From: Halapricum sp. CBA1109
Lineage (GTDB): Archaea > Halobacteriota > Halobacteria > Halobacteriales > Haloarculaceae
Direction: 5' to 3'
Assembly (NCBI RefSeq): GCF_009741825.1
Contig: NZ_WPCA01000009.1
Span: 1 to 36,053 of the forward strand
DNA length: 36,053 bases
Part shown: positions 3,416 to 23,643 of the stretch, piece by piece
Layout: the number at the start of each line of letters is the position of its first letter
How positions within the stretch are numbered: the first letter of the stretch is position 1
The notes under the pieces: generated by a model
What the model saw: the letters and a program-made list of their open reading frames with translations, nothing else
Database searches by the model: none
Told to the model about the DNA's origin: nothing
Position numbers and translations under genes: made by a program

Positions 3416-4171
3416 TCATCGCTGACGGTACTCCGCAGTGTGAACCACTGTCCCGGGAATCCAGTGGGAGTCGGTCACGAGTGGGAGGTGCGAGCCGGTT
3501 TGGACCCGGTTTCCGGCGAAGTATCGTGTGTATCCGAGCCGAATGGTCTGCAGTGTCAGATCGACACGCAACCGGCTCCGGGTACCGTTTGCTACCGGCA
3601 CTGCAGAGACGGACGTGACCTCGGTGAGTGTCGTGTCGTTGAACGTGAATGTGTCGCCACGGTCGAGGGACGACGACACCGACGCGGGAACCGTGGCCTC
3701 GATCGTGACGTTCGTTCGACTGGTTGGAAGCGTGTCCGAGGGCCGATCGATAGCCAATATTTTGCCCCTGCCACCGTACTCGTCGGTGCCGAAATACATC
3801 ACCCGGCCCGCTCTGAACTGGCGGTTTTGTTGTTGCGGTGGGTTGTTGCTATCGTATCTGATCCGGACGTACAGGCGAGAGGTATTGTCGCCGCGGGAAG
3901 GCGAAAAATATGTATCCGATATCGTGGTTTCGCCGCCACCCCCGACGGCCGAGAGGGTATCACCGACAGTTATCTGCGAGGCTATCGCTTCGGGTTGGTC
4001 GTTGAACACGACAGTCGCGTAGCGTGTTTCGCCCGGTTGTGTGTCTGTCTCCCCGGCAGGGACGAGGACGAGTCCAGCTACAACGACGACACCGATGACG
4101 GCGATCACGACTATCGCGTCGACTATGTTTATCAGGCCGAATAGACGACCCTGTTCGTCGAGCAGCGGCAT
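3416..4171 (-). CDS. DUF4330 family membrane-anchored protein
   Basis: 251 residues beginning MPLLDEQGRLFGLINIVDAI, a characteristic DUF4330 start, followed by a single membrane helix (about 16-37) and a large beta-rich extracytoplasmic domain. That domain has repeated strand patterns (ETRYATVVFNDQP, VTIEATVPASVSSSLDRGDT). The biochemical role of DUF4330 is unknown. It is the first gene of the leftward group and sits next to the divergent glycan locus, so a role in envelope or glycan export is conceivable but only inferred. Confidence 0.8.
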   Translation of the reverse strand: MPLLDEQGRLFGLINIVDAIVVIAVIGVVVVAGLVLVPAGETDTQPGETRYATVVFNDQPEAIASQITVGDTLSAVGGGGETTISDTYFSPSRGDNTSRLYVRIRYDSNNPPQQQNRQFRAGRVMYFGTDEYGGRGKILAIDRPSDTLPTSRTNVTIEATVPASVSSSLDRGDTFTFNDTTLTEVTSVSAVPVANGTRSRLRVDLTLQTIRLGYTRYFAGNRVQTGSHLPLVTDSHWIPGTVVHTAEYRQR

Positions 4172-5786: not shown

Positions 5787-8105
5787 ATGACCGACGTGGC
5801 CGAGGCGACAGCGTCCTTGGTAGCCGACAGGCCGGACGTGGCTGCGGACCTCGAGACGCTCCTCGATATCGACGCCGACGGGACGTGGACCTTCGAGGAC
5901 ATCCCGATGGACTCCGGGACGTTCGGGGAGATCGTCTCGCGTGGTATCGCGGCGGAAGTCGACGACGGCTACCGGATAACCGACCGCGAGGCCGTCCGAC
6001 GCGGCCTCGAAGGTGACGAGACGAGCGCCGGGGAAGACGACGAGACGGCCGACAACACGTCAGGGGTTGTGCACGCTGCCCGTGAGCGGATGCTGTCGCG
6101 GTCGGTCGCCGCAGTCGCGGGCGTCCTCGTGTTCGTCGCCCTGATCCGGATCGGGGTCATTCAGGGGTCGGTGTTGCGAAACGGGGAAATCGTCCTCGCC
6201 GGCAACGACGCCTACGCGTACTGGCGACAGGTCTCACGGATCGTCGCGAGCGACGTCGGGCTACTCGACCTCTCGAACCTCCCGTCCCGCAGCGCCGACG
6301 GGGACGTCCTGTTCGTCGTCGGTATCTGGTGGGTCGTCGCGCTGACCGGCACGAGCGTCGCCACGGTCCTCGCTTGGTACCCGGTCATTGCCGGTGTCGC
6401 AGGCACCGGCCTCCTCTATCTGGTTGTTCGTTCGCTGACCGACGACCGCCGTATCGCACTGGCCTCGGCCGTTATGCTCGGGATTACGCCGGTCCACGCG
6501 TTTCGGACGGCGCTCGGCTTCGGTGACCACGACGCGCTCGACCTGCTGTGGCTGACCGCCGTCGTCCTCGCGCTCGTCGTCCTCGCTTACCAGCGAAGGG
6601 AGGAGGCTTGGCGGCGGACGACCGGTGCCGCCGTCGTGACCCTCGGCGTGGCGGTGGCCGCTCAGATGCTGTCCTGGCGCGGTGGAGCGCTCTATCTCCT
6701 ACCGGTCGGGCTCACCGTCGTCGCTGTCGTGCTGGACGACATCCGTGCTGGCCGGGCACCGCTGAGGGCCAACGGGCCGTTGCTCGCGGGCCTCGGCCTC
6801 GGGGCGGTCCTCGGACTGCTGCCGCACCTCGCTTTCGGGTGGCTCCCGGCGTACCGGGCGGCGATACCGGGGCTGCTGTTCGGCGGTGCCGCCGCAGTCG
6901 TGGGCGTGGCGTCGGTCGTCGACCGACTCGGGTACGGGGTGCGAGCGACCGCGGTCGTCGAAGGGGTCGTCGGCATCGCCAGCGTTGCCGTGGTCGCCTC
7001 TCTCCTCTCGGGACCGGTCGAGGACTTCCTCGCGTATATGGCGACGACCGGCGAGCGGAACATCGCCGAGACGGGGTCGCTGATCGGCGGCGACGTGGGG
7101 TCGATCGGCGGCCCGATATTCCTGTTCGGGCTGCTGTTGTTCCTCGCCGTACCGTATCTCGTCATCGTGTCCCTCCGGGCGTACCGGCAAAGCGCGCCGG
7201 CGTGGCTCGTTCCGGCCGCGTTCGCGTGGTACTTCCTCCTCGCGTCGGTCGTCCAGCAGCGCTTCGCCGTCGCGCTCTCGCCGTTCGTCGCCATATTCGC
7301 CGGCGTCGGATTCGTCCATCTGGCGAACTGGGTCGACCTCGCACGTCCGGTCGGGATACTCGATGGCAAGCGGGACATCGCGGTCAGTCTCCCGGACCGT
7401 CGACAGATCGGACTCGTCGTGATCCTGTTCCTTCTGGTCGGGAGCCTCAGTTTCGTCCAGGTTCCCGTGAAGATGCAACAGGTGGCTGTCGACGACGCGG
7501 CCTACGAGACCGGCGCGTGGATCGCTGAGAACGCCAGCGAACAAGGCCTCGAACACCCGAACGACACCATCGCGACCGACTGGGACCGGGTCCGGATGTA
7601 CAACTACCTCGCCGGATCCGTCGACGGGCCGGACAACTTTGCCCAAGCGACGTTCGGGCGATTCGCTGAGGGGACGAACACGACGCGGTGGTACGGACGC
7701 CTCGAAACCGGGTACGTCGTCCTCGAACGGACCGACAGGAACGCCTCCGCGGGGTCGGTATTCGACCAGCTAGCCGCCCCAATCGCGCGGCCAGCGGCGC
7801 TCTCTGCGAGCCACTTCCGACTCGTCTATGCCCGCCCGGACGACCACATCGCGGTGTACAGGCTACTCCCGGGAGCGCGGATAGAAGGGACTGGTCCAGT
7901 GAACTCGACGGTCGATGTCCGGGCCAACGTGACCGTCAGCGGAAGCGGATACCAGTACGAACAGACCGTCGAGACCGATCGCAACGGGACCTACAGAGCC
8001 GTCGTCCCGTATCCGGGCGAGTACCGGATCGGCAACCGGACGGTCACCGTCCCCGGGTCCGCCGTCCGGACCGGCGGGACAGTCAGCGACACCGAACGGC
8101 CGTAG
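5787..8105 (+). CDS. STT3/AglB-like oligosaccharyltransferase with degenerate WWDYG and an N-terminal winged-helix-like domain
   Basis: 772 residues. Residues 1-90 are soluble and look like a small winged-helix-type fold (WTFEDIPMDSGTFGEIVSRG, then a predicted wing, DDGYRIT). From about 105 to 580 there are about thirteen membrane segments in STT3 order, with the family's catalytic-loop motifs: NDAYAYW (D141), GDHDALD (246-252) and NIAE (425-428) at the position of the TIXE/SVSE motif. The C-terminal domain is extracytoplasmic. Where WWDYG should read the sequon's +2 Ser/Thr, I find DWDRV (598-602), so only the central W-D survives. Known AglB attaches lipid-linked glycan to asparagine; this one may recognise another acceptor or be inactive. 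The leaderless TATA fixes the start. Its stop lies 2 bp from the convergent gene. Confidence 0.8.
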   Translation: MTDVAEATASLVADRPDVAADLETLLDIDADGTWTFEDIPMDSGTFGEIVSRGIAAEVDDGYRITDREAVRRGLEGDETSAGEDDETADNTSGVVHAARERMLSRSVAAVAGVLVFVALIRIGVIQGSVLRNGEIVLAGNDAYAYWRQVSRIVASDVGLLDLSNLPSRSADGDVLFVVGIWWVVALTGTSVATVLAWYPVIAGVAGTGLLYLVVRSLTDDRRIALASAVMLGITPVHAFRTALGFGDHDALDLLWLTAVVLALVVLAYQRREEAWRRTTGAAVVTLGVAVAAQMLSWRGGALYLLPVGLTVVAVVLDDIRAGRAPLRANGPLLAGLGLGAVLGLLPHLAFGWLPAYRAAIPGLLFGGAAAVVGVASVVDRLGYGVRATAVVEGVVGIASVAVVASLLSGPVEDFLAYMATTGERNIAETGSLIGGDVGSIGGPIFLFGLLLFLAVPYLVIVSLRAYRQSAPAWLVPAAFAWYFLLASVVQQRFAVALSPFVAIFAGVGFVHLANWVDLARPVGILDGKRDIAVSLPDRRQIGLVVILFLLVGSLSFVQVPVKMQQVAVDDAAYETGAWIAENASEQGLEHPNDTIATDWDRVRMYNYLAGSVDGPDNFAQATFGRFAEGTNTTRWYGRLETGYVVLERTDRNASAGSVFDQLAAPIARPAALSASHFRLVYARPDDHIAVYRLLPGARIEGTGPVNSTVDVRANVTVSGSGYQYEQTVETDRNGTYRAVVPYPGEYRIGNRTVTVPGSAVRTGGTVSDTERP

Positions 8106-8107: not shown

Positions 8108-10057
8108 TTACCGCCCGGACCGAGTCCGGTTCTCGTGGAGGTACACGGTGTCCGGGCCGTTCGTGTATATCTTCGACTCCCGTTCGATACCGTCGGGGAG
8201 TCGTAAGAACAGGTAAGTGTTGCTTCCGAGACGGGATCCCCTCGGCCCGTAACGGACGCCGTCGGTCCGGGCTTGTCGCGGAATCTCGTATCTAGCGTCC
8301 GCGGAGAGGTTCGAGAGAACGATGGTCGCCTCGTTGTTGCTAGTACGCTCTAGCGGGAGGGTCGTCTTGGCTCTCCGAGTCTCAATGAGCGCCTCGCCGG
8401 CGTGGTCGTCCGCCCACGACTGCTGTGCGCTGTCGTGGCCGGTGTAGTAGCGCCACTTGTCCGGGACCTCGTCACCGACTGGTGAGAGCGCGACGCTACC
8501 GACGGGCGAAGCGAGAGCGAAAACCACGAACACGAACACGACCGAACCGACGACTGCACCGCGGTACCCGGCGGGGAACCGGTCGGCGAGCGTGAACAGT
8601 CCGATCGTCGCCAGAAGGTTGAGTCCGAAGAAACCGAGCAACAAGTAGATTCGCTGTGGCGGGATGTCGTTCGCGTTGACGAAGACGCTGAGAGCGATCA
8701 ACAGCAGGCCGCCACCGATCCACGCGACGATGACGTCGAGCGACCACTCACGGCGGCGGATCCCGAGGCCGATACCCGCGACGCCCAGCGTGAACAGTAT
8801 CGCCTGCCCGGCAGTCGAAAACAGGAGGACCGACAGCGAGAGACTGGAGTAGCGCCCGCCGGAGGTACCGCTCGAACCACCGCCGCCACCAGCGCCGCCC
8901 CCACCGGGAAGGAGCGTGTCTGTGAGTGACGCGACGAGGTTCGTGGCCCGACTGAGGAAGCTCAGGTCGGCGAACAACGAGAACGCGACCAGTCCGACGA
9001 CCACGACGGCGACGACCGACGTCGTCGTGCTCCGAGTCGGCGGTTCGGGGTAGTCGAGGTACCTGAACAGCCGCGTCGCCTGTTCGTACACCCACAGCGG
9101 AGCCAGCAAGATGAGTGCGGCCCCCGCGCTGTACATATGCCCGGTCAACAGCGCGAGCATACAGACGCCGACGGGGACGACGTACCGGAGGTACTGGTCG
9201 GATCGGTAGACGAAGTGGAAGAACACGATGACGACGAACAACAGGAACGGCCGGAAGAAGTTCGTCTTGAACGGGAACATCCCGCGGCGGAGGGTAAAGC
9301 CCATCAGTGCGAACACCAGGGCGCCGAACAGTGCCATCCGTCGGTCGACCGCCGGGACGACCCGGTCGAGCACTGCGATCATCGCCACGCTGACTAATAG
9401 CGCGAGGACGGACAGCAACTGGTAAGCGAGTCGCTGTGAGAGCCCCGTCGTCAACATCCCCTCGGCGACGTATATCATATGTCCGGGCGTCCGGCGGTAG
9501 AGTACGTCGTTCGGAACGAAGCCTGTGCGGGCAATCTCGCCGGCGGTTATGACGAAGCCACCGTCCGGCGTGACGACGCCGGCGGGGTAGACGAACTGTG
9601 TACTCCAGTATGTCAGGAAGGCCACGACGAGAATCTGCGGCAGGACGTGCCGTTTGGGCTGGCCGACCCATATCTGGTAGGCGACGAACGCCGCCACACC
9701 GCCGAGGACGAGATAGTGGCCGATCGGACGGGTGTACAGCCCGTTACGGTACAGCGCGAGCACGACCACGACGTACAGGCTCGTGACGACGACCGGAATC
9801 CGCCAGTCGAGTGGGCGGGTCGGAACGTCGAACTCGACACGGCCGAGCGCGAGCGCGAGTATCGATCCGGCGAACGCGCCCACGACCGGCCCGAGGAAGG
9901 CGTAGAAACCGAGCGAAGCCACGAGAGCGACCGACGACGCCCCGACGACGGCCATAACGTGTGGGGCGAACCGGCGGAGGACTCCCGCTGCTCGCCCCGT
10001 CAGCCCGTAGTCTGCATCGTCCCCAGTGTCGTCGTCGGCTGTCACGTCCCCGGTCAT
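8108..10057 (-). CDS. Large polytopic membrane protein, possible GT-C glycosyltransferase
   Basis: 649 residues: a short acidic cytoplasmic N-terminus, about twelve to fourteen membrane segments, then a C-terminal soluble region of about 120 residues, probably outside. The loop after the early helices, VVTPDGGFVITAGEIARTG, carries an acidic residue in the position used by GT-C enzymes, but I see no diagnostic motif. A glycine/serine linker (LLPGGGGAGGGGGSSGTSGG, near residue 380) divides the membrane domain. Its ATG overlaps the stop of the alkaline-phosphatase-superfamily gene upstream (ATGA), so the two are translationally coupled and probably work on the same glycan. Alternatives are a glycan polymerase or a transporter. 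Confidence 0.55.
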   Translation of the reverse strand: MTGDVTADDDTGDDADYGLTGRAAGVLRRFAPHVMAVVGASSVALVASLGFYAFLGPVVGAFAGSILALALGRVEFDVPTRPLDWRIPVVVTSLYVVVVLALYRNGLYTRPIGHYLVLGGVAAFVAYQIWVGQPKRHVLPQILVVAFLTYWSTQFVYPAGVVTPDGGFVITAGEIARTGFVPNDVLYRRTPGHMIYVAEGMLTTGLSQRLAYQLLSVLALLVSVAMIAVLDRVVPAVDRRMALFGALVFALMGFTLRRGMFPFKTNFFRPFLLFVVIVFFHFVYRSDQYLRYVVPVGVCMLALLTGHMYSAGAALILLAPLWVYEQATRLFRYLDYPEPPTRSTTTSVVAVVVVGLVAFSLFADLSFLSRATNLVASLTDTLLPGGGGAGGGGGSSGTSGGRYSSLSLSVLLFSTAGQAILFTLGVAGIGLGIRRREWSLDVIVAWIGGGLLLIALSVFVNANDIPPQRIYLLLGFFGLNLLATIGLFTLADRFPAGYRGAVVGSVVFVFVVFALASPVGSVALSPVGDEVPDKWRYYTGHDSAQQSWADDHAGEALIETRRAKTTLPLERTSNNEATIVLSNLSADARYEIPRQARTDGVRYGPRGSRLGSNTYLFLRLPDGIERESKIYTNGPDTVYLHENRTRSGR

Positions 10058-11337
10058 TTGTACCCCAGTGCTTCGAGCCGTGACTCTATCTCGTCGGTCG
10101 TCTCCGGTTGTGCCGCCGGGTCGATGCGACCGAGTTCGGCGAGGCGATCGTGGGCGAACGCGGCGAGGGAGTCCCGGAGGGCCGACGGCGACTCGTCAGT
10201 GCCCGACACAGTCTCCTCGAGGATGTCGTTCGTGTCGAGGTCGCGTTCCTGCCGGAGCAGTGTCTCCCCGTCGGTCACCGCGAAGCGGCGGCGCGTCTCG
10301 TCGTCCTCCGGCGCGACGCTGGCGAAGACGTGCCGGTCCTCGGAGAGGGAGAGAGAACCATCCGTATCCGCGATGACCGCGCCCGGAAGGTCGGCATCGA
10401 CGCCCGCAAGCGCCGACGCCGTCGGCGCGACGTCGATAGTACTCACAGGAGCTGTCACGGTCGCCTCGGCACCGCCCGGTGGCGAGAGGACGAGCGGAAC
10501 GTGGAGCAGTTCCGTTCGGAGTTGGCGGGGATGGGTGTACTGGCCGTACTCGCCGAACACCTCGCCGTGGTCCGCCGTGATGACGACGAGGGCGTCGTCG
10601 AGGCGGCCCCGGTCGTCGAGCGCATCGAGGAACGCGCCGATCTCGGCGTCGAGACACCGTATCTCGTCGTCGTAGGAGTCGATCAGTAGCTGCTGTTCCT
10701 CGTCGGTGATGTCCTCGGGCCGCTCCCACGCCTTCCGATAGAGCGTCTCGGCCTCGCCGGCCGAAAGGGACCGGTCGGCGTAGTGGGTCTCGGGCGCGTG
10801 GTACGGACCGTGGACGTCCATGTAGTGGTTCCACAGGAAGACGGGCCCGTCGTCGATACCGTCGAGCCACGACAGGGCTCGCTGGTGTATCTTCTCGGCC
10901 CGAGCGTAGTACTCGCCCCTGTTGAAGACGTACTTGTCGAGGGCCTTCTGTGCCAGCGCGAGAAAGCGGTTGCGGGCGAGATAGAGGTCGTCGTCGAACG
11001 CGTCGAACCCGTCGTCGTAGCCGTAGGCACGAGAGAGATACGGATTCGAGTGGAACGCCCCCGTCTGGTAACCGCTATCGGCGAGTCGTGACGGGAGCGT
11101 ATCGGGGACCTGCTGGAAGTTGTTCCCGACGAACGCCTCCGGCCAGCGACCGGTCAACAGCGGCGGCGCTGCCTCGCGGGTGTGCGAACTGGGCGCGTAC
11201 GCGTCGGTGTAGCGGACGGCCGCGTCGGCGAACGCGTCGAGGGCAGGCGTCGTCTCCCTGTCGTACCCCAGTCCGGAGACGTGGTCCGCGCGGAGGGCGT
11301 CGACGCTGAGGAGGATGATATCCGGCGGCTCCGCCAT
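10054..11337 (-). CDS. Sulfatase-like alkaline phosphatase superfamily protein (Ser type)
   Basis: 427 residues with the sulfatase/phosphodiesterase core: first metal ligand in IILLSVDALRADH (D13), nucleophile region YAPSSHTREAAPPLLTG, and late metal ligands in VITADHGEVFGEYGQYTHP. The sulfatase signature CxPSR reads SSHTR here (S50-R54), so formylglycine cannot form by the cysteine route; a serine-type (AtsK-like) or phosphotransfer role is more likely. There is no signal peptide, so the enzyme is probably cytoplasmic. The C-terminus ends in EALGYK, a tail shared with the other four superfamily members here. The start at 11337 is set by a TATA box 28-35 nt upstream; the longer frame to 11406 is rejected. 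Coupled by an ATGA overlap to the membrane protein downstream. Confidence 0.75.
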   Translation of the reverse strand: MAEPPDIILLSVDALRADHVSGLGYDRETTPALDAFADAAVRYTDAYAPSSHTREAAPPLLTGRWPEAFVGNNFQQVPDTLPSRLADSGYQTGAFHSNPYLSRAYGYDDGFDAFDDDLYLARNRFLALAQKALDKYVFNRGEYYARAEKIHQRALSWLDGIDDGPVFLWNHYMDVHGPYHAPETHYADRSLSAGEAETLYRKAWERPEDITDEEQQLLIDSYDDEIRCLDAEIGAFLDALDDRGRLDDALVVITADHGEVFGEYGQYTHPRQLRTELLHVPLVLSPPGGAEATVTAPVSTIDVAPTASALAGVDADLPGAVIADTDGSLSLSEDRHVFASVAPEDDETRRRFAVTDGETLLRQERDLDTNDILEETVSGTDESPSALRDSLAAFAHDRLAELGRIDPAAQPETTDEIESRLEALGYK

Positions 11338-11365
11338 TGGTAGTCCCAACTGGGAGACCGAGACG

Positions 11366-11373
11366 TTATAAAC
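11366..11373 (-). promoter_or_regulatory. TATA box of the sulfatase-like/membrane-protein pair
   Basis: On the minus strand GTTTATAAC reads across here, centred about 32 nt before the ATG at 11337, consistent with a leaderless or near-leaderless transcript. Confidence 0.6.
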
Positions 11374-11406
11374 GCACCTGTTCGGGACACGAGAAGCGTT
11401 CCACAA

Positions 11407-11757
11407 CTGTTTTTGTCGGGTTCGATGATGATCCGGTAGTGATAATTGGTTGGTATCCTAGAGGCGGAATATGAGTTCGACGTACCTCTGTATCAGTGCA
11501 CAACCCTCGATACGTCTGGGATAAAAGGATGTATCTCCCCGATATATCGATGGACCTTACCTCTGAGACAATCTCTCTAACGAGGAGGAGGGTGACCACA
11601 TCGTGACTCTCGTCTATGTTCTCTCTATCATAAGAATTTCATCACAGATGAATTATTCCTGTGAGTGGCGGAGGTCTCTCCGCGGAGGATTGTTCGAAGC
11701 CGACGGGAGCACAAGCGCCGTTCGATGCGACGCTGGACCGACCAAGATAGATCCGAA
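11407..11757. other. AT-rich intergenic region between divergent genes
   Basis: About 350 bp, noticeably AT-richer than flanking DNA, between the leftward sulfatase-like gene and the rightward flippase. Translation gives no credible protein in any frame. It should hold the flippase promoter; the A/T-rich stretch around 11629-11656 is the best place but no clear TATA is aligned with ATG 11758. It marks the left edge of the low-GC block. Confidence 0.4.
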
Positions 11758-13173
11758 ATGAGCATCGTCACGTCCATCGGGAAAATAACCGCCGCCAAGA
11801 TTCTGAACCGTATCCTCGGGTTCGCCGCGTTCGTCTTCTTCGCCCGGGAACTCGGAGCCGGCGAGTTCGGTATCTTTGTACTCTTCCAAGCGTCGCTAGG
11901 ATTGCTCTCACTGTTCGCGGACCCGGCGATCGGACAGGCGGCTGAACAGCGGGCCAGTTCCGGGGAGCCAGCCGACCGCGTCTATGGGACGGCCCTCCTC
12001 CTGAAGAGCGCGTTGCTCGTCCCGCTGATAGCCGTGATAGTATGGTTCAGCGGACCACTCGATGCGTATATCGGGGGTGAGGTGACGACCCTCCTGATCG
12101 TCGCGACAATCGTCCAGCAACTGGGGAGCCTCCCGGAGGTGATGCTTCGAGCGGAACTCCGCGTCGGAGAGACAGCCTCGTTGATGGCGGTCAGACAGGT
12201 CGTGTGGGCCGTCGTCGGTGCCGTCCTCGTCCTCCTCGGATTCGGGTTCTACGGGTTGATATACGGACTGCTGGTCGCTGTGACGCTCCGAGCGCTGCTC
12301 GCGCTGTACAAGTGTGAGACGAGCCTCGGGCAACCCTCCCGTGAGCAGTTCTGGTCGATAATTAACTACGCTAAATACCAGGTCGTCGCGAACAAGGTCG
12401 CCCCACAGCTATACAGTTGGACGGATGTGACGATTATCGGTATCTTCCTGACATCGAGTCTGGTCGGGGCATACGAGGTCGCTTGGCGCGTCGTCGGGAT
12501 CGTCCTCATCTTTCCCGCGGCCATCGGGACGACGATATTCCCGCACATTAGCGCTTGGAGCAGGAACAGTGATACTGAGCAGATCAGAGAAACCCTCTCG
12601 CGGGTACTCGTCAGTGTCGTATCTGTCTCGATTCCGGCCTTCTTTGGCGTGTTATTACTCGGTCGTGAGATTCTGAGACTAATCTTCGGCCCGGAGTTCA
12701 CTGTTGCTTGGCTCGTGTTGATTATACTGATGGGGCAGAAGTCAGTAGAGGCGATCAAGAACACACTTGCCAGAGTCGTCGCTGCGATGGACTATCCGCA
12801 ATACAACGCCATCGCAACAATCGTTGGAACGACCCTCAACGTCGTCCTCAATGTTGTTCTCGTCTGGAAGTTTGGTATCGTTGGTGCCGCCGTTGCGACG
12901 ACAGTGGCGACAATAGTCGGTATGTTGTTGCTTGGCGGCTTCCTTCGTCGGGTACTCTTGTTCACGTATCCAGTGAAAAAAATCGGCTGGATGGTCGTTG
13001 CCTCTACCGGGATGGCTATCATCATCGCAGCACTCAAAACGATAATCGTGATCAACTCGCTCCCCCGACTGGTCTCCATCGTCCTGCTCGGTGTTATCTT
13101 ATATGTCGTATTGGTAAGCACGTTCCAGCCACTCCGGGAGGACCTCGGGAAGATACTCCAACAAATAAAGTAA
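11758..13173 (+). CDS. Polysaccharide/lipid-linked glycan flippase (Wzx/AglR-like, MATE-type fold)
   Basis: 471 residues with about twelve to fourteen membrane helices and the sequence feel of the polysaccharide-biosynthesis (RfbX/Wzx) family: N-terminal helix ILNRILGFAAFVFFARELGA then GEFGIF, the typical 'G..FG.F' start, and a central YEVAWRVVGIVLIFPAAIGT. In haloarchaea, AglR-type members move dolichol-linked sugars to the outer face of the membrane. The frame stays open upstream to 11665, but the arginine-rich leader there is unlike the family; ATG 11758 (MSIVTSIGK) fits the usual N-terminus. Codon use drifts from GC-rich at the 5' end to AT-richer at the 3' end. Confidence 0.8.
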   Translation: MSIVTSIGKITAAKILNRILGFAAFVFFARELGAGEFGIFVLFQASLGLLSLFADPAIGQAAEQRASSGEPADRVYGTALLLKSALLVPLIAVIVWFSGPLDAYIGGEVTTLLIVATIVQQLGSLPEVMLRAELRVGETASLMAVRQVVWAVVGAVLVLLGFGFYGLIYGLLVAVTLRALLALYKCETSLGQPSREQFWSIINYAKYQVVANKVAPQLYSWTDVTIIGIFLTSSLVGAYEVAWRVVGIVLIFPAAIGTTIFPHISAWSRNSDTEQIRETLSRVLVSVVSVSIPAFFGVLLLGREILRLIFGPEFTVAWLVLIILMGQKSVEAIKNTLARVVAAMDYPQYNAIATIVGTTLNVVLNVVLVWKFGIVGAAVATTVATIVGMLLLGGFLRRVLLFTYPVKKIGWMVVASTGMAIIIAALKTIIVINSLPRLVSIVLLGVILYVVLVSTFQPLREDLGKILQQIK

Positions 13174-13531: not shown

Positions 13532-14476
13532 ATGTCAGACTACACATTCTCTGTTATCATCCCGACACTCGACAGAGAAGAGAAACTCCTAGAGTGTACG
13601 AAGCGGTTATCTGAGCAGACAAGACAGCCTGAAGAAGTAATCATTGTCGACGACGGAGATCTTGATATTGGGGTCCAGACAAAAATCAGAGAGACTCTCG
13701 GAGGAACCGAGTTGAGGATTACGTCATCTGATGGACCACCCGGCACATCGACAGCGAGAAACACGGGTATCCGTACGGCATCAAGCAATATCATCGTCAC
13801 TCTTGATGACGATGTGTGGCTCGGAGCGGAGCATTTGGAAAGACTAGAACACCTATATGAGCAGTATGACTCGGACACACTGGCTGGTATCGGAGTCGCA
13901 GGCCGCACTGATTCACTGACGAGTACCAGACGACGCCTCGTCGATATCCACAACAGAATCTTCTATCGAATCAACTCCGGTTGGCGCATCAACTCAGCAG
14001 GGTTCCAGAAGGCAAGTATCGTTAGCGAACCAGCGGAAAGTGAATGGATAAGTGGCGGCGTGGCGAGTTACAAACGAGCGGTCTTGCTAGACCATCCCTT
14101 CCGACATTGGGAAGGAGGACGTGAAGTCCACGAGGATATCGAGATCTGCTGGCGGTTGAAAAACGAGGGGTATCACTTCATCGTCGATCCAGAGTTACCT
14201 ACGAACCACAGTAAGGGAGAGCGCCACGAGAGCGGCCTCAAGACAGGTATGAAGAAGGGACGAAATCGAGTCAGGATGTTTCGAGAAAACGGGCGCCTCC
14301 GTCATCTACCATTATTTGTATGGGGATGTATCGGACTGATCATCGCACATCTTGTTCATCCGTTTATTAGTGAGTCCGAAGGACGGTACAGGTTCATTGC
14401 GGGTATCGGTGTAATACTCGGTGTGATCCAGCAGTTCCCATCTATCTTTTATCACTCGGCAAAGAGTAGCGAATAG
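13532..14476 (+). CDS. Family 2 glycosyltransferase with C-terminal membrane segment
   Basis: 314 residues. The GT-A fold begins FSVIIPTLDREEKLLECTKR; the nucleotide-sugar site is EVIIVDDGD (36-43) and the DxD metal motif is TLDDDVWLG (D92-D94). The later acid of the active site is in the EVHEDIEICWRL segment, a typical GT2 'ED' motif. A hydrophobic helix (LFVWGCIGLIIAHLVHPFI) near residue 275 may anchor it to the inner face. Likely adds a sugar to a lipid-linked glycan; the sugar is not predictable. The gene is AT-richer than the flanks, like its neighbours. Confidence 0.8.
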   Translation: MSDYTFSVIIPTLDREEKLLECTKRLSEQTRQPEEVIIVDDGDLDIGVQTKIRETLGGTELRITSSDGPPGTSTARNTGIRTASSNIIVTLDDDVWLGAEHLERLEHLYEQYDSDTLAGIGVAGRTDSLTSTRRRLVDIHNRIFYRINSGWRINSAGFQKASIVSEPAESEWISGGVASYKRAVLLDHPFRHWEGGREVHEDIEICWRLKNEGYHFIVDPELPTNHSKGERHESGLKTGMKKGRNRVRMFRENGRLRHLPLFVWGCIGLIIAHLVHPFISESEGRYRFIAGIGVILGVIQQFPSIFYHSAKSSE

Positions 14477-14549
14477 CTGCCAACGTTTCCAAAACCGGGA
14501 GAGTCGGTCCGGTCGTAAACTGTCAGAGATAACTACGTGGTATCGAATA

Positions 14550-14557
14550 GTATATTA
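14550..14557 (+). promoter_or_regulatory. TATA box before the methyltransferase-like gene
   Basis: GTATATTA lies about 28 nt upstream of the ATG at 14581, the leaderless spacing, so this gene has its own promoter. Confidence 0.5.
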
Positions 14558-14580
14558 GACGCCTCAAGATCAGTTATCAT

Positions 14581-15267
14581 ATGGTGATTTTGTCAGTCGT
14601 GACTCGTCTCTTCGGAGTATTCCCGGATCGACTGCAGAGATACGTATGGGAGTTAGCAGAGAGGAATACACTGCTACTGTGGATGCGGGTGTATTTCACT
14701 AAGGGAACTATATTCAAAAAGAAAGGGTGGTTTGAGAGCAGTGTCTCAGGCGGCGTTCCGGTCGACGGAAGTGGCAATCCGACGCCGTGGTATACGTATT
14801 CAGCTATCGATTTTTTGGATGAAAGGATCAGCAGAGACCTCCGCGTGTTCGAATACGGGGGTGGATACTCTACCATATGGTATGCCCAAAGAGTAGAGGA
14901 GGTGATAGCCGTGGAAGATTCGAAGGAGTGGACTGAAATCGTTACGAAACGCCTCCCGAGGAACGGAGAAATCGTGTATCGAGACTCGAAAAAAGAGTAT
15001 ACCGGAGAGATACTGAACCGCGAGAAGTTCGATATAGTCGTAATCGACGGTTCGTACAGAACGGATTGTGTCGAATCATCTCTCAAGTCACTGTCTGATC
15101 AAGGAGTGATAATCTGGGACGATTTCGACTGGTTAGACGAGGATGACTACCAATTACTCATCGAAGACGGATTCTCTGTACTTCCATTCCGTGGATTGAA
15201 AGCCGGTGAAGCCAGCTACAAGTGTACAGCCATATTTTACAGAGAGAACAACTGTCTCGGGATATAG
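14581..15267 (+). CDS. SAM-dependent methyltransferase-like protein (Rossmann fold)
   Basis: 228 residues. The C-terminal 150 form a class I methyltransferase-like Rossmann fold: glycine-rich motif I VFEYGGGYSTIWYAQ, the acidic end of strand 2 in VIAVEDSKEW, strand 4 FDIVVIDGSYRT and strand 5 GVIIWDDFDW. The N-terminal part has a YFTKGTIFKKKGWFES segment of unknown role. The substrate is unknown; the glycan locus suggests sugar or lipid-sugar methylation. Its own TATA box and AT-rich codons suggest independent acquisition. Confidence 0.65.
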   Translation: MVILSVVTRLFGVFPDRLQRYVWELAERNTLLLWMRVYFTKGTIFKKKGWFESSVSGGVPVDGSGNPTPWYTYSAIDFLDERISRDLRVFEYGGGYSTIWYAQRVEEVIAVEDSKEWTEIVTKRLPRNGEIVYRDSKKEYTGEILNREKFDIVVIDGSYRTDCVESSLKSLSDQGVIIWDDFDWLDEDDYQLLIEDGFSVLPFRGLKAGEASYKCTAIFYRENNCLGI

Positions 15268-15282
15268 CAAACCCTCAATACT

Positions 15283-15290
15283 GTTAAATA
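15283..15290 (+). promoter_or_regulatory. TATA box before the small phosphatase-superfamily gene
   Basis: GTTAAATA is centred about 29 nt before ATG 15316, suiting a leaderless transcript. Confidence 0.5.
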
Positions 15291-15315
15291 GCTGAATTCC
15301 AACTGTACCGGATAT

Positions 15316-16206
15316 ATGGATATTGGTGACGCTGTGTATGGATTGAAAAATCCGAAATCTATTCTCCGACAATTAAATCGGTTGTACTTTTCGTTCAGTG
15401 CAGGTGAGTTTAACCAAGGAGGTACTTCCGTGTTAGACGAAGATTGGGATAACCTGATCGTCCTTGATGCGTGCCGATATGACACATTCTTAAACAACCA
15501 CTCGTTTGAAGGAAAGCTCAGTTCACGAATCTCGAAAGGGTCGAATACCTACGAATTCCTGAAGGCGAATTTCTCCGGTCGTGAGTTATACGATACGGTG
15601 TATGTCTCTTCGAACCTGTGGTTCCCCAATATAAAAGACGAGATCGATGCCGAGGTACATTCATTCGTTCCGGTCACGACCGAGGGCCCAAAAGTAGCTG
15701 TCAGACCCGAAGCCGTCACAGAACGGGCATTAGAAGTCAACCAATCCCACCAGGATAAGCGGTTGATAATTCATTATACACAGCCCCATTATCCGTATTT
15801 CGGTCCGACTGGACAGGAGTACTTCGATCATCACGACACGTCGAGTCTGCAACTGGCGATGCGACGCAACGGGGACGATATCCCGAAAGATGTCGTGCAA
15901 CGTGCATACGAAGAGAATCTCGATATGGTTCTGGAAGAGGTCGAACGACTGCTACCCGAACTGCGTGGAAAGACAGTCGTCACGGCCGACCACGGTGAGA
16001 TGCTGGGCGAGCGGTCGTTCCCGATTCCGATCACCGACTACGGCCATCCAAACACGATCTACACCGAGGAACTGGTCAAAGTTCCGTGGCTCGAAATCGA
16101 CGAGGGCTCACGGAAAGAGATCACTGCCGAAAGGCCGGATAACGACATAGATATCTCGGACGACGAGATCGATGCGAATCTGCGGGCACTGGGGTACAAG
16201 ACCTGA
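15316..16206 (+). CDS. Small alkaline phosphatase/sulfatase-superfamily protein
   Basis: 296 residues, shorter than normal sulfatases. First metal ligand in NLIVLDACRYDTF (D51), nucleophile region KGSNTYEFL (S76 or T78), then HYTQPHYPYFGP, and TVVTADHGEMLGER plus DYGHP for the remaining metal ligands. No CxPSR and no signal peptide. The tail NLRALGYKT matches the superfamily tail found in this locus. It is paralogous to the convergent gene at 16993-17916 (shared DACRYDTF, QPH, TADHG, GHP and VPWL blocks). Likely a phospho- or sulfo-ester enzyme acting on glycan precursors; the reaction is unknown. Base composition becomes more GC-rich toward the 3' end. Confidence 0.7.
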   Translation: MDIGDAVYGLKNPKSILRQLNRLYFSFSAGEFNQGGTSVLDEDWDNLIVLDACRYDTFLNNHSFEGKLSSRISKGSNTYEFLKANFSGRELYDTVYVSSNLWFPNIKDEIDAEVHSFVPVTTEGPKVAVRPEAVTERALEVNQSHQDKRLIIHYTQPHYPYFGPTGQEYFDHHDTSSLQLAMRRNGDDIPKDVVQRAYEENLDMVLEEVERLLPELRGKTVVTADHGEMLGERSFPIPITDYGHPNTIYTEELVKVPWLEIDEGSRKEITAERPDNDIDISDDEIDANLRALGYKT

Positions 16207-16249
16207 AAGGGGCCACTCCAGCGTTGACACGTCACCAGCGATACCGAAC

Positions 16250-16258
16250 CTATATATT
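16250..16258 (+). promoter_or_regulatory. TATA box of the decayed FkbM methyltransferase
   Basis: CTATATATT lies about 27 nt before ATG 16281. It supports that ATG as the ancestral leaderless start of the pseudogene. Confidence 0.5.
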
Positions 16259-16280
16259 CAGCGTCCCGTCAATTCGCTCT

Positions 16281-16988: not shown

Positions 16989-16992
16989 GATG

Positions 16993-17916: not shown

Positions 17917-18033
17917 ATTCGTTATGTTACTGCGATGAATACAACGGTCTATACGTCTTTCGGTAACACCATCAGATGTCTAACGATCAAGAAGATCCCG
18001 AGAGAAGTGCAATCTATGAAATTATTCTCTTAG

Positions 18034-18063
18034 TTATATTAATAATTATTTATATTAATAATT
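18034..18063. repeat. Two tandem copies of a 15-bp AT-only repeat
   Basis: TTATATTAATAATTA is followed directly by TTATATTAATAATTT. The array provides the last codons and stop (TAA) of the leftward methyltransferase gene and continues beyond it. A pure A/T tandem pair is very unusual in DNA of this GC content. Confidence 0.7.
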
Positions 18064-18808: not shown

Positions 18809-18867
18809 ATTTATTTCCGAACGACAGCAGTTCTGTCTTACTACACAATTGATGCATCCGGGGGCCG

Positions 18868-19087: not shown

Positions 19088-20194
19088 ATGAGTAATTCCG
19101 GAATCCCGGAGACGGCAATCGTGTTCAAGCCCGGTGACGGACGTGGGGGAGCACAGACCTACGTCTCACGAATTGCCGACTGGATGGACAGTCCCGTCCA
19201 TACCCTGTACACTGATCTCGACAGTTCCGACTGGGGGGAGACTTCAGTTGTCGAGTTCGGCTCACGGCCTAGTCTTCCACTCGTCGGTCGGAGAGCGGTC
19301 GGATCGTTCCTCGACAGGTTAGAGTATGCGTTCTGGACTCCGCCGGCCGAGTACGACGTGATCGTATCGAGCGGTCTCGTCGCGAAGACAGTCCAGCACC
19401 GACCTGACCAGACTCGGATCCATCTCGCGCACGGATTCCACCGCGGAGCGTTCGGCCTCCCACCACGGGACGAGTTCGCCAGCAATCGGTTGTTGCGGTT
19501 CCTACAACAGACCAATCGTCTTAGCCTTCGACGAAGCGAACGCCAAGACGCTCAGCAGATGGATTATCTCATCGTAAACAGCGAGTTCACGAAATCCATC
19601 GTCGAACATTATCTCGGGGCCACCGTCGACCGCGTGATCCACCCGCCAGTATCAGTGGAGAGTTACGAAGATGACCGCCCAGCTGACGAGGATTTCTTCC
19701 TGTTTCTCGGACGAGTCGCGGCGGTCAAAGGCGTCGAACAGATCGTCGAGGCGTTCGAGGAGTTGCCCTACCAGTTGCGCGTCGCAGGCGACGGACCGCT
19801 TCGGGAGGAATTACAATCGCAATCGGGTGACAACGTCGAGTTTCCCGGCTACGTATCTGAAGAGCGAAAGCGAGAGTTGATGGGTAAATGCCAAGGATTC
19901 ATTCAGAATTCAGTCATCGAGGATTTCGGTATCACAACAGTCGAAGCTATGGCATCGGGAGCACCAGTCGTCGCAGTGAATCACCAGAACAACCCGTACT
20001 TGGTTGAAGACGGTGACACGGGTATCCTCTTCGAACCGTCGAAGTCAGTCGAACCACTCCGGGAAGGCGTCCGGGCAGCAGCGGCGACTGACTGGGATCA
20101 CGAGCACATTCAAGAGAGCGCGACCCCATATAGTGAAGCACACTGCAGACAGAAGTGGAAGCAACTACTCGCTGACGCCCACGAACCCACCTAA
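19088..20194 (+). CDS. Family 4 glycosyltransferase
   Basis: 368 residues with the GT-B plan of GT4. The N-terminal acceptor domain has a glycine-rich loop (KPGDGRGGAQTYVSRIADWM). The C-terminal donor domain opens FFLFLGRVAAVKGVEQIVEA, followed by LRVAGDGPLREEL, and the E-x7-E motif for donor binding is EDFGITTVEAMASGAPVVAV. It transfers a sugar from a nucleotide donor with retention, presumably to the cytoplasmic lipid-linked glycan. It ends 4 bp before the next gene, so the two form an operon with the GT4 after it. It marks the return to GC-rich codon use. Confidence 0.85.
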   Translation: MSNSGIPETAIVFKPGDGRGGAQTYVSRIADWMDSPVHTLYTDLDSSDWGETSVVEFGSRPSLPLVGRRAVGSFLDRLEYAFWTPPAEYDVIVSSGLVAKTVQHRPDQTRIHLAHGFHRGAFGLPPRDEFASNRLLRFLQQTNRLSLRRSERQDAQQMDYLIVNSEFTKSIVEHYLGATVDRVIHPPVSVESYEDDRPADEDFFLFLGRVAAVKGVEQIVEAFEELPYQLRVAGDGPLREELQSQSGDNVEFPGYVSEERKRELMGKCQGFIQNSVIEDFGITTVEAMASGAPVVAVNHQNNPYLVEDGDTGILFEPSKSVEPLREGVRAAAATDWDHEHIQESATPYSEAHCRQKWKQLLADAHEPT

Positions 20195-20198
20195 CACT

Positions 20199-21587
20199 AT
20201 GGATCACGCGGACCGAGTCGTCCTCATCGTCCTCGACAGCGTCCGTGCGGACGCACTCACGGAGACGACAGCGCCGAATCTGACGGCCCGCGTCGACAGC
20301 GATTGGCTCACCTACGAGAACGCCATCTCGCCCGCGCCGTGGACGCTGCCCGCGCACGCCAGCATCTACACCGGGCGACTCCCCCGGGAACACGGCGCGA
20401 CAGCGCACAACAAATACCTCTCGACGGACCATCCGACGCTGGCGTCGCAGTTCGAAGCCGCCGGCTACCACACGCGACTGTTCTCGAACAACCCGTTTCT
20501 CTCCGAGACGTTCGGGATGGTCGAGGGGTTCGAGGAGGTCGTACTCCACCTCGACACGAAACTTCGTCCGGACGCGACGGGTCTCTGGGTCGCCGACATC
20601 CTCGACCGGAGCGATAGCTGGACGGAGACAGTGCGGACACTGCTGGCTAGCGGGAACCGCTGGACACCGGTGAACCTCCTGTACGAACTGCTCACACTGA
20701 AAACAGACCGCGTCGGACCGGCCGACGACGGGGCGGAGCGTACTGTCGATTACTACCTCGGGAACGACAGTGACGGGCCCGAGTTCACGCTGTGTAACTT
20801 TATGGAGGCGCACTTGCCCTACGATCCGCCGGAGCCGTTCCGGTCTAGGCACCTCCCCGACGGAGCGACCGAGGACGACGCCGCCTCGGTGAATCAGGAG
20901 CCGTGGGACTACGTCCTCGGGGAGCGCGACACCGATTTCGCCGTGCTCCGGGGACTCTACGAGGGCGAGATAGCGACCCTCGACGCCCAGTTAGAACGGC
21001 TCTTCGAGGGCCTCGAAGCCGATGGCGCCCTCGTTGAGTCGCTGATCGTCGTCTGTGGCGACCACGGAGACCACTTCGGCGAACACGGGTTGCAGGGTCA
21101 CGCGGGCAGTCTCCACCGCGAACTGCTCGACGTACCGCTTTTCGTGCGGTTCCCCGGTGGCGAACACGGCGGCGAAAGCGTCTCCGAGACGGTATCGTTA
21201 CGGCAACTGTACAGTAGTCTCTTGCAGTGGACTGACACGCCGACGCCGGAGGCGGAAAGGGCGCCGGATCCGCTCCCGATGCCGGGCGAGCCATCGACAC
21301 AGGAGGGAGTCGTCGCGGAGTATATGGGCGTCCAAGACATCGACGTCGATCCGAGAGCGCTCGAAGCGTACGATTACCGACGGACGAGCGTCCTGACGGC
21401 CGACTCGGAGTTGATCGAATCGGACGACGGCGTCGACTATCACGACGGACCCACCGACGCGGAGACGCTCCGGGGGCTGAAATCGGAGATACTCGACGGT
21501 GTGCCGGACACCGTCTCGACCGGTCGTGACGGGGACGTTCCCGCGTCCGTCAGAGAACGGCTCGAAGCGACGGGGTACGTGCAGTGA
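20199..21587 (+). CDS. Sulfatase-like alkaline phosphatase superfamily protein (Thr type)
   Basis: 462 residues. Metal ligand in VVLIVLDSVRADALTE (D13); nucleophile region ISPAPWTLPAHASIYTG, where threonine (T49) takes the place of cysteine as in LtaS/phosphoglycerol-transferase-like members; late ligands in LIVVCGDHGDHFGEHGLQGH. There is no signal peptide or membrane helix, unlike LtaS. The C-terminus ends RERLEATGYVQ, the locus-wide tail. A phosphotransferase or phosphodiesterase acting on a sugar or lipid-sugar is more likely than a sulfatase. ATG 20199 lies 4 bp after the GT4 stop, and the stop overlaps the next GT4 start, so translation is coupled both ways. Confidence 0.75.
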   Translation: MDHADRVVLIVLDSVRADALTETTAPNLTARVDSDWLTYENAISPAPWTLPAHASIYTGRLPREHGATAHNKYLSTDHPTLASQFEAAGYHTRLFSNNPFLSETFGMVEGFEEVVLHLDTKLRPDATGLWVADILDRSDSWTETVRTLLASGNRWTPVNLLYELLTLKTDRVGPADDGAERTVDYYLGNDSDGPEFTLCNFMEAHLPYDPPEPFRSRHLPDGATEDDAASVNQEPWDYVLGERDTDFAVLRGLYEGEIATLDAQLERLFEGLEADGALVESLIVVCGDHGDHFGEHGLQGHAGSLHRELLDVPLFVRFPGGEHGGESVSETVSLRQLYSSLLQWTDTPTPEAERAPDPLPMPGEPSTQEGVVAEYMGVQDIDVDPRALEAYDYRRTSVLTADSELIESDDGVDYHDGPTDAETLRGLKSEILDGVPDTVSTGRDGDVPASVRERLEATGYVQ

Positions 21588-22752
21588 TGCGGGTAGCGTT
21601 CGTCAACCGGATGCTGGGTATCCGCAGGAGCGGCGGCGGGATGTGGGACTACCGGATGGCCGAACAGCTCCGCGAGCGCGGCGTCGACGTGACGTTCTAC
21701 GTCGCCGAGCCGCTCACGGGCGAACTTACAGAGGACCTCTCGCCGTTCGAGTGCGTCCCGGTGCCGACGCCACACCTACAGGATATCGCCTACGCGGCGC
21801 CCCGGGGTATCGGCGGCGTGCTCGCGGACATAGACGCGCGGGTGTTCGCGTCGAGGGTCCACGCCAAGCTGGTCGACGAGGCGTTCGACGTGGTCCAGTA
21901 CAACACCAACCGGGAGTTCGCGCGGTACACCGACCGCGTGGACGCGCCGACGGTCCTGAAACTCAACGGACCGCCGTACTCACTCTATCGGGACGTACTC
22001 AACCCATTCACTGAGAGTTCCTACGACGTACTCGAAGCGTTCGACGCCGTCGTCACGACCGGCGCGACCACCGAAGCGGTCCGCGAGCGGAGCGGCGTCG
22101 AACCGGTCGAGATCAATCCCGGGGTCGACACCGACCAGTTCACACCGGGTGCGAGGCCGGTCGACGGTCCACGGTTCCTGTTCGTCGGTCGGTTCGTGCC
22201 CGCGAAGAACCTCACCACGCTGGTCGACGCGTTCGCCACGGTGAGAGACCGCTGTCCGGACGCGGAGCTGACACTCGTTGGCGACGGTCCGCTCCGCGAT
22301 AAGGTGGCCGAGCGCGTCCGGGAGAACGAACTCGACGCTGCCGTCACTCTCCCGGGGTACGTTCCGAACGAGGACATCCCGGAGTACTACCGGGACGCGA
22401 CGGCGTTCGTCCTCGCGTCCAGTCACGAGAGCTTCGGTATCGTCCTGTTGGAAGCGATGAGTGCCGGGATTCCGGTCGTCGCACCGGCGATAGACGCGAT
22501 CCCACGAATCGTCGACGACGGCGAGAACGGGCTGCTAGTCGAACCGGACTCCGCGTCGCGCTGGCCGACGCGATGGAGCGGGTGGCCGAGGCGCCGGACC
22601 TGTGTGAACGGATGGGTGAAAGCGGTCGACAGAAGGCCACGCGCGAGTTCCAGTGGGACCAGCGCGGTGAGAAACTGCTGGAACTCTACGAGTCGCTCCG
22701 CGAACGGGAGCGTGCCTCACCGGCCGAGCCGACGTTTCAGTCCGACCAGTAG
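21587..22752 (+). CDS. Family 4 glycosyltransferase with a C-terminal frameshift
   Basis: GT-B glycosyltransferase: N-terminal loop NRMLGIRRSGGGMWDYRMAE, donor domain FLFVGRFVPAKNLTTLVDAF, VGDGPLRDKV, and E-x7-E in HESFGIVLLEAMSAGIPVVA. After GLLVEPDSAS (near 22558) the reading frame is lost. One missing G between 22555 and 22562 would restore ALADAMERVAEAPDLCERMG and the rest of a normal GT4 tail to TAG 22750-22752. As written, the frame instead runs on to 22816 with an arginine-rich false tail. ATG 21587 overlaps the previous stop by 1 nt (GTG 21584 also possible). The repaired gene overlaps the convergent GT2 by 36 bp. The catalytic core is intact, but the last helix, which packs on the N-domain, is lost. 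Confidence 0.8.
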
Positions 22753-23643
22753 TTCGAACCCGCGGTGGCCGAACAGAGCGACCAGATACAGGAGGAGGCG
22801 CTTCGGTGAGACCTGATACCCCAACGCGGCCCGTAGCTCTCGGCGGCCTGCCACAGTGTCGCCGTTGTGGAGATACGCGACGGCTGTATCGGTGTGGTGA
22901 GTCGCCCACGCGTCGGAGAAGACTGCGTGCTCCCGGAGTGTGGACTCGTATCGGTCCAGAACTAGCTCGCGGTACTGCTTTTGCTGATCGGCGTTGCGGG
23001 ACATCCCGCCGTCGTGAACCGACCGGACGACGAGCGGATCAGGGACACACCCGACGGCGTGTTCGCGCGCGATGCGGAGGTAAAGGTCCCAGTCTTCTTG
23101 ATACCGCAGGGACTCGTCGAACCCGCCGACGCCTTCGAACACCGAGGCCGGGACGACGACTCGTGAGGGGGAACCGAGGTGGTTTCGAACGAGTAAGTCC
23201 CGGAAGATGTCGCCCGCGAGGGATGGGCGTGCGGTGTGGACGACCTCGCCATCGTCGGTCACCGAGACACGACCGGTGTACGAGAGCCCGAGGTCCGGCC
23301 GTGTCTCGAACTGTCGGACCTGCCGTTCGATCTTTCGGGGCTTCCACCGGTCGTCGTCGTCGAGAAACGCGAGCAGGTCCGCATCGGTCGCCGAAGCGGC
23401 TTGGTTTCGCGCGGCCGGAAGCCCCTGCGGACTGTCGTTGCTGACGTACGTCAACCGGTCACTCCCGTAGACATCGGCGTACTGTGAGACGACGGCTTCG
23501 GTGCGATCATCAGTGCTGGCGTCGACGACGACGGCCTCGATGCGCTCGTAGGTCTGATCGAAGATACTTTCGAGGGCCGCGTCGAGTCGCTCCGGACGGT
23601 CCATCGTCGGGACGATAGCGGCGACCTGTGGACGGTCAGGCAT
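22717..23643 (-). CDS. Family 2 glycosyltransferase
   Basis: 308 residues. The GT-A core starts VAAIVPTMDRPERLDAALES, with EAVVVDASTDDRTEAV for the nucleotide and DLLAFLDDDDRWKPRKI for the metal-binding DxD (D95-D98). The later acid motif is in SLRYQEDWDLYLRIA (ED). The C-terminal region VSPKRLLLYLVALFGHRGFE is hydrophobic and may attach to the membrane. It is the last gene of the seven-gene leftward run. ATG 23643 is preferred over the 6-codon upstream extension. The donor sugar is not predictable. Confidence 0.82.
   Translation of the reverse strand: MPDRPQVAAIVPTMDRPERLDAALESIFDQTYERIEAVVVDASTDDRTEAVVSQYADVYGSDRLTYVSNDSPQGLPAARNQAASATDADLLAFLDDDDRWKPRKIERQVRQFETRPDLGLSYTGRVSVTDDGEVVHTARPSLAGDIFRDLLVRNHLGSPSRVVVPASVFEGVGGFDESLRYQEDWDLYLRIAREHAVGCVPDPLVVRSVHDGGMSRNADQQKQYRELVLDRYESTLREHAVFSDAWATHHTDTAVAYLHNGDTVAGRRELRAALGYQVSPKRLLLYLVALFGHRGFELLVGLKRRLGR

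Follow-up and report, generated by a model that had tools for sequence, protein, structure and literature searches.

Our analysis points to a haloarchaeal family of STT3-type proteins that keep the donor and catalytic side of oligosaccharyltransferases intact, lack the sequon-reading motif WWDYG, and probably choose their acceptors in another way. The member under study, P0001, has 772 residues and is encoded by an uninterrupted open reading frame (positions 5787-8105, forward strand, ATG at 5787) in a stretch of 36,053 nucleotides of Halapricum sp. CBA1109 (contig NZ_WPCA01000009.1; the whole stretch is hereafter the window), whose source genome of 2.97 Mb is 79% complete. We favor, at about even odds, the reading that these proteins are oligosaccharyltransferases of a second pathway beside canonical AglB, which would transfer glycans from dolichol pyrophosphate (DolPP) to a surface acceptor without using a WWDYG pocket, the likeliest acceptor being an asparagine of a surface protein. 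This reading is built on the predicted fold, the catalytic residues, the absence of WWDYG, the co-occurrence and linkage with PF02397 genes, and the linkage to S-layer genes in Halobacterium. From these observations we infer activity, a DolPP-linked donor and a protein acceptor for the family.

The preliminary description of this DNA held that P0001 has lost WWDYG and reads DWDRV (598-602) in its place, while keeping NDAYAYW with D141, GDHDALD and NIAE; all these motifs are where it put them. A profile-profile alignment with 14 canonical haloarchaeal AglBs (probability 99.9, E 5.3e-37, positions 106-763) sets D598-W599-D600 (TDW-D) on W571-W572-D573 (SWW-D) of the canonical AglB of the window's own genome, which confirms the placement of DWDRV at the WWDYG site. 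No intact WWDYG was found elsewhere in P0001, where WWD does not occur at all, nor is WWD present in any of the 107 aligned family sequences, the window copy included. Because the change is family-wide, a local mutation or an assembly error is ruled out as its cause. The claim of a loss is therefore right in that WWDYG is absent, but wrong in implying an event in this gene, as the whole family has its own conserved replacement, usually S597-x-W599-G-x-N-R603-x-Y-N606-Y, with W599 and R603 each in 105/107 sequences and N606 in all 107. The old motif is not wholly erased either: its second Trp is retained as W599, and the window copy also retains its Asp as D600, as do only 6/107 sequences in all. 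A hidden Markov model (HMM) of 73 family sequences aligns with Archaeoglobus fulgidus AglB residue by residue in the membrane part (E 1.6e-33) and, separately, in the peripheral domain, but it did not align with the central C-terminal unit of that AglB, which lies between them and holds WWDYG and DK.

These sequences come from a homologue search in 146 genomes of the window's taxonomic family, where full-length homologues occur in most of 22 genera among the matches listed, and from a wider scan of named genomes. From the first 30 homologues fetched, 27 were aligned and three (L011, L016, L019) were excluded for in-frame stops. A single-protein query gave no match in the genome contigs; an alignment query contributed another 80 loci in named genomes (the best 80 of 134), with Haloarcula, Halorubrum, Natrinema and Halobacterium among the hosts. 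The set of 107 includes duplicates, such as L006 and L034; 73 sequences were left at less than 72% identity to those kept earlier.

The catalytic side tells a different story from the acceptor side. N140, D141, H248, R492 and F493 are invariant (107/107), E428 is present in 106/107, and D247 is Asp in 100/107 and Glu in 7/107; at position 249, where the usual DHH has its second His, the window copy carries Asp, found in 2/107 sequences overall. With D141, H248, R492 and F493 in every sequence and E428 in all but one, an inactive or purely regulatory family is unlikely, which speaks against one of the options first proposed for P0001. The family alignment supports the more general proposal of a donor and catalytic side kept without the acceptor-side motif, which makes another mode of acceptor choice probable.

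P0001 scores above the gathering thresholds of Pfam STT3 (PF02516; E 2.5e-10, 40.9 bits for a cut-off of 24.5) and AglB_L1 (E 4.3e-8, 33.6 bits for a cut-off of 23.6). With NCBIfam archaeo_STT3 (TIGR04154) it reaches 119 bits, below the cut-off of 450, as do other members of the family (141.1 for the one in the Halobacterium genome G161, 164.5 for L021, 143.8 for L005). Its AlphaFold2 model, built from an alignment of 73 rows, has a mean predicted local distance difference test (pLDDT) of 91.3 and a predicted template-modeling score (pTM) of 0.85. The model supports an STT3-like fold: the best Foldseek match in the PDB is A. fulgidus AglB (7e9s, E 2.2e-22, TM 0.65/0.59), followed by human and yeast STT3, PglB and DPY19, with ArnT and Pmt4 also matched. 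W599 opens a helix (599-609) after a strand of two residues in this model, and a helix follows WWDYG in AglB too (PMC3703281).

A tree of 71 sequences separates the seven canonical AglBs from all others by a branch with support 100; in it, P0001 and L005 form a pair (support 100) inside a group of 15 (support 100). Canonical AglB itself is present, above the TIGR04154 cut-off, in 110/110 genomes of the window's taxonomic family (about 109 that are at least 90% complete, plus the window's own), and WWDYG was found in all 21 canonical sequences read. The window's genome has its canonical AglB on another contig, with VLSWWDYGHW, so that the search for a normal enzyme elsewhere in this genome was positive. 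Outside the class, 198 genomes of the phylum were searched, and their strongest match (E 5.4e-43) covers only model positions 97-528, the membrane part. Relatives on six plasmid records are annotated as 'STT3 domain-containing protein' (3), 'LamG-like jellyroll fold' (2) or 'hypothetical' (1). Part of the family (L008, L012, L015, L017, L018, L028 and L030, of 980-1017 residues) has a C-terminal extension; the two LamG-like plasmid relatives are H2 and H5, and the extension is perhaps a glycan-binding module.

The donor side of the proposed pathway is suggested by the company that the genes keep. PF02397 enzymes transfer a sugar 1-phosphate to polyprenol phosphate and thereby start pyrophosphate-linked glycans. 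We compared 81 neighborhoods (80 named loci and the window), some of which end at contig ends, 63 of the 80 loci having both flanks nearly complete. The commonest neighbors, tied at 41/81 each, are a cluster of PF02397 sugar-phosphate transferases and a broad cluster of NAD-dependent epimerases; by profile, PF02397 is found in 42/81 neighborhoods, followed by nucleotidyl transferases (34) and family 4 glycosyltransferases (26). Across 391 genomes of the class, PF02397 is present in 204/214 genomes with the STT3-like family and in 41/177 without it, presence of the family being defined by a best E of at most 1e-60 and split or partial copies (G070, G253, G306, G385, G393, G418) being counted as present. 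In the 27 genera that include genomes of both kinds, PF02397 is present in 104/112 genomes with the family and in 9/99 without, 26 genera going in the same direction and one being tied (Cochran-Mantel-Haenszel z 11.6). Since the association holds within mixed genera, relatedness alone does not explain it, and the two genes seem to have been gained and lost together.

Physical linkage agrees with this pattern, canonical AglB serving as the control. In 34/42 genomes, no more than 50 kb separates the STT3-like gene from the nearest listed PF02397 place; for canonical AglB, this is so in 1/42. This count covers 42 of 64 genomes of the window's taxonomic family with both genes, uses the PF02397 places among the matches listed, and takes the nearest copy on each side; second PF02397 places, in G019 and G084 for example, fall outside it. 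Some genomes have PF02397 without the STT3-like family (G038 and G040-G043 of genus g3, and five of the seven genomes of g68), and may use another transferase.

The acceptor side is best approached through Halobacterium. The bacteriorhodopsin of G161 is 100% identical over 260 residues to that of H. salinarum, the query sequence also matching PDB bacteriorhodopsin over its full length. The genus was assigned through Halobacterium sp. CBA1126, whose locus L074 shares its match and the place of that match with G453, a genome of this genus. G161 carries both a canonical AglB with WWDYG and a WWDYG-less family member (FSRWSRNRLYNWF). The gene of the latter begins 3.3 kb after the S-layer gene csg (TIGR04216, 1181 bits for a cut-off of 400), with the ATPase and permease of an ATP-binding cassette (ABC) system in between. 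After it come glmS and two GlmU-like genes, encoded on the opposite strand, and a PF02397 gene at a distance of 4 kb; everything from csg to PF02397 fits in one stretch of 14 kb. The S-layer glycoprotein of H. salinarum is reported to bear a second N-glycan, of 10-15 repeats of a sulfated pentasaccharide, linked through N-acetylgalactosamine and derived from DolPP (PMC8674786). This repeating glycan sits at Asn-2 and survives replacement of Ser-4 by Val, Leu or Asn, in a species for which just one oligosaccharyltransferase gene was known (PMC2952790), and the part of AglB in its attachment 'is still not clear' (PMC6591318). The glmS and GlmU-like neighbors in G161 would suit an amino-sugar linkage, and the predicted mature N-terminus of its S-layer protein, Ala-Asn-Ala-Asp, keeps Asn-2 but not Ser-4.

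Other Halobacterium genomes, of which 4/13 have the family, show a similar pattern. An S-layer gene of the H. salinarum type is present in 4/4 genomes with the family and in 1/9 without it (p 0.007), a pattern that was noticed post hoc. The question about Asn-2, on the other hand, was set down before any N-terminus except that of G161 was read. A predicted Asn-2 S-layer protein occurs in 3/4 genomes with the family and in 0/8 of those read without it (p 0.018) or, by protein, in 4/7 and 0/10; these figures rest on mature N-termini predicted from the signal pattern and on S-layer-like proteins chosen among the matches listed, the S-layer protein of G166 being left out. The four N-termini are ANAD, ANAS, ANAS and ANEV, two of which (ANAD and ANEV) have no Ser or Thr at +2. 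The nearest csg-type gene lies about 3, 4, 19 and 47 kb from the family gene in the four genomes. In the 47-kb genome, remnants of an STT3-like gene separate two tandem S-layer genes of the H. salinarum type (G201:C1:209500-218400). We regard the family as a candidate for the transferase of the H. salinarum Asn-2 glycan. Of the acceptors originally envisaged for P0001, the linkage to S-layer genes in Halobacterium favors a protein, a lipid or a glycan being less likely.

Under the reading that we favor, a PF02397 enzyme would load a sugar phosphate onto dolichol phosphate at the cytosolic side, glycosyltransferases would lengthen the lipid-linked glycan, and a flippase would bring it to the outer face. 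The STT3-like enzyme, in which the metal-site residues and Glu are preserved, would then hand the glycan to a surface acceptor picked by position or docking rather than by a Ser or Thr at +2; in Halobacterium, this acceptor would be Asn-2 of the S-layer glycoprotein. A possible docking device is the N-terminal domain. The same domain heads Halobacterium proteins of about 300 residues, and the three that were scanned belong to the EMC3/TMCO1 family (YidC/Oxa1-type insertases); insertase-type proteins sharing it lie at L142:1489-2370, L140:1465-2367 and L143:1465-2367, and the similarity to P0001 amounts to 39% over 76 residues (E 8e-11). To judge from this likeness, the domain could bring the enzyme to the translocon, the site at which a nascent chain emerges with its first residues. 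A more specific version of the pathway, which we offer tentatively and hold to be clearly less probable than the general one, is a translocon-docked, sequon-free oligosaccharyltransferase whose insertase-type domain would bring it to the nascent chain, and which would transfer a DolPP-linked polymeric glycan onto an Asn near the new N-terminus (Asn-2 in Halobacterium).

Several observations weigh against the proposed pathway. The only PF02397 match of the window's genome is on another contig (C113), not beside P0001; in G003, the copy nearest to P0001 is 1.9 Mb from PF02397; and PF02397 is missing from 10/214 genomes with the family, a Halobacterium (G201) among them. P0001 and its nearest relative L005 (VWDRVRVYNY) are further eroded in the family motif: they are the only two sequences with Val at 602, where N602 has become V, and GESxSYGYA is gone. 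Haloferax volcanii, where AglB is the sole homologue according to a review (PMC3871713), is not among the 9/14 control genomes that match PF02397. Hence, the idea that the family supplies the missing low-salt transferase of that species was not supported, the relatives considered in named genomes being the best 80 of 134. In Halobacterium, the predicted mature S-layer N-terminus of G453 lacks Asn-2 although csg and the family gene are 4 kb apart there, and G178 has the csg type without the family gene. The G161 protein departs from one S-layer peptide given in PMC8674786, so that G161 is a close relative or another strain rather than the strain of that study. Because the numbers are small, the Halobacterium S-layer counts are supporting, not deciding. 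We also considered a subclade that operates without PF02397, but the difference (2/6 and 34/57 fully flanked loci) was not significant.

Finally, PF02397 enzymes start exopolysaccharides in bacteria, to judge from family names, so that a non-protein acceptor would fit the donor-side evidence as well. The family might then be a polysaccharide ligase or polymer-finishing enzyme that moves a pyrophosphate-linked glycan to a membrane lipid or a growing exopolysaccharide, and hence has no sequon pocket. The surroundings do resemble exopolysaccharide loci, with sugar-nucleotide genes, PF02397, flippases and glycosyltransferases recurring near the STT3-like gene; in NCBIfam, the PF02397 protein of G161 comes closest to EPS_sugtrans (262.8 bits, short of the cut-off of 295.55), and the neighbors typed outside Halobacterium indicate no particular acceptor. 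Nevertheless, the retained D141 and E428 are residues of AglB-type transfer to Asn, the gene lies near S-layer genes in Halobacterium, and the domain shared with insertases would point to nascent proteins. We consider such a ligase rather unlikely, although it survives better than the other alternatives.

The replacement motif itself raises another possibility, that of an ordinary N-X-S/T oligosaccharyltransferase in which W599, R603 and N606 would make up the +2 Ser/Thr pocket in place of WWDYG. These residues are almost invariant, W599 falls on the second Trp of WWDYG in the alignment, and among the four Halobacterium N-termini with Asn-2, two read NAS. The natural occurrence of ANAD and ANEV argues the other way, as does, if the enzyme is this one, the replaceable Ser-4 of the Asn-Ala-Ser of H. 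salinarum (PMC2952790), and we find a rebuilt pocket quite improbable. The matches to DPY19, ArnT and Pmt4 and the two hydrophobic proteins without Pfam families that flank P0001 might instead suggest a single-sugar glycosyltransferase of the C fold (GT-C) that uses dolichol-phosphate sugars, like AglS or DPY19, and is no oligosaccharyltransferase; this is more improbable still, given the far better Foldseek scores of AglB and STT3, the AglB_L1 domain, and the linkage to PF02397, a maker of pyrophosphate carriers. An inactive or regulatory paralogue, which the divergence of the window copy at DHH and in the replacement motif and the in-frame stops in three of the first 30 homologues might evoke, is hardly credible in view of catalytic residues that are invariant or nearly so across the family and of a presence that tracks PF02397.

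The window offers a picture of its own (Table 1). It holds three genes of the alkaline-phosphatase superfamily, of the sulfatase or phosphodiesterase type (10054-11406, 20199-21587 and 26917-28554). Third-position GC is 0.53-0.64 for the genes at 13532-20194 and about 0.7-0.9 in the other genes selected, and this region is perhaps a recently acquired glycan island. The two hydrophobic proteins flanking P0001 have no relatives among the 81 neighborhoods. The window copy is a divergent member of the family in a glycan locus with a flippase and glycosyltransferases, and its donor is less certain.

Table 1. Features of P0001 and of the genes around it in the window
Feature	Position	Strand	Basis or remark
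DUF4330 protein	3416-4171		Pfam; DUF4330 near the STT3-like gene in 17/81 neighborhoods
Hydrophobic protein, 462 residues	4314..5702	+	No Pfam family above cut-off; possibly GT-C-like, by eye
STT3/AglB-like membrane protein without WWDYG (P0001, 772 residues)	5787..8105	+	Open reading frame, Pfam, NCBIfam, profile alignments, model
N-terminal domain, residues 1-74	5787..6008	+	Winged-helix-like order of elements in the model; outside the stretch aligning with canonical AglB
NDAYAYW (140-146), first acidic motif	6204..6224	+	Sequence and alignment; D141 aligned with the Asp of GNDPWYY in A. fulgidus AglB
GDHDALD (246-252), second acidic motif	6522..6542	+	Sequence and alignment; equals DHH of AglB
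NIAE (425-428), TIXE/SVSE loop site	7059..7070	+	Sequence and alignment; E428 aligned with IAE of A. fulgidus AglB
R492 of the QxRF motif	7260..7262	+	Alignment
DWDRVRMYNY (598-607), at the WWDYG site	7578..7607	+	Sequence, family alignment, profile-profile alignment
AglB_L1 peripheral domain, residues 696-745	7872..8021	+	Pfam and alignment with A. fulgidus AglB
Hydrophobic protein, 649 residues	8108..10057	-	No Pfam family above cut-off
Sulfatase-family protein	10054..11406	-	Pfam
Polysaccharide flippase (Polysacc_synt_3)	11665..13173	+	Pfam
Family 2 glycosyltransferase	13532..14476	+	Pfam
Three genes: family 4 glycosyltransferase, sulfatase-family protein, family 4 glycosyltransferase	19088..22816	+	

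Overall, many haloarchaea have, beside the normal AglB, a second and related putative enzyme whose gene travels with the gene for a second type of lipid-linked sugar. This makes it a good candidate for a transferase sought for decades. In the literature searched, subscription papers aside and within the text accessible to us, there is no description of a haloarchaeal STT3 family without WWDYG. The Ser/Thr pocket has been described as present in all oligosaccharyltransferases, and the paralogues within one organism are said to have one common type of pocket (PMC3703281). A large family with the catalytic side but no WWDYG breaks this picture of a universal pocket, and if our reading is true, an STT3-type enzyme operates without the +2 Ser/Thr pocket that was thought common to all. 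The family would also provide a candidate gene, in a genome close to that of H. salinarum, for three old facts: that a second N-glycan is carried by pyrophosphate, that it is attached at Asn-2, and that it tolerates the destruction of the sequon. An enzyme for sequon-free N-glycosylation, if confirmed, would be a useful tool.

Four known systems stand closest to the family. One is the transferase of the H. salinarum Asn-2 glycan (PMC2952790, PMC6591318, PMC8674786), whose identity with the family is our proposal; the predicted likeness lies in the pyrophosphate donor, the dispensable Ser at +2, the S-layer substrate and an H. salinarum-like host. Canonical haloarchaeal AglB (TIGR04154), represented in H. 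salinarum by VNG1068G (PMC6591318), shares the superfamily and the membrane motifs, but differs by its WWDYG, its TIGR04154 scores above 450 bits, its separate branch in the tree, and its rare proximity (50 kb or less) to PF02397. PglB of Campylobacter and eukaryotic STT3 resemble the family in their GT-C oligosaccharyltransferase fold and in a pyrophosphate donor that is established for them and presumed for the family, but they have WWDYG (PMC2952790) and the family does not. With A. fulgidus AglB-L (3WAJ, 5GMY, 7E9S), the family has in common the predicted fold, both acidic motifs, the IAE loop, the Arg of QxRF and the peripheral domain; it differs by the lack of WWDYG, by a central C-terminal unit that does not align, and by its additional N-terminal domain.

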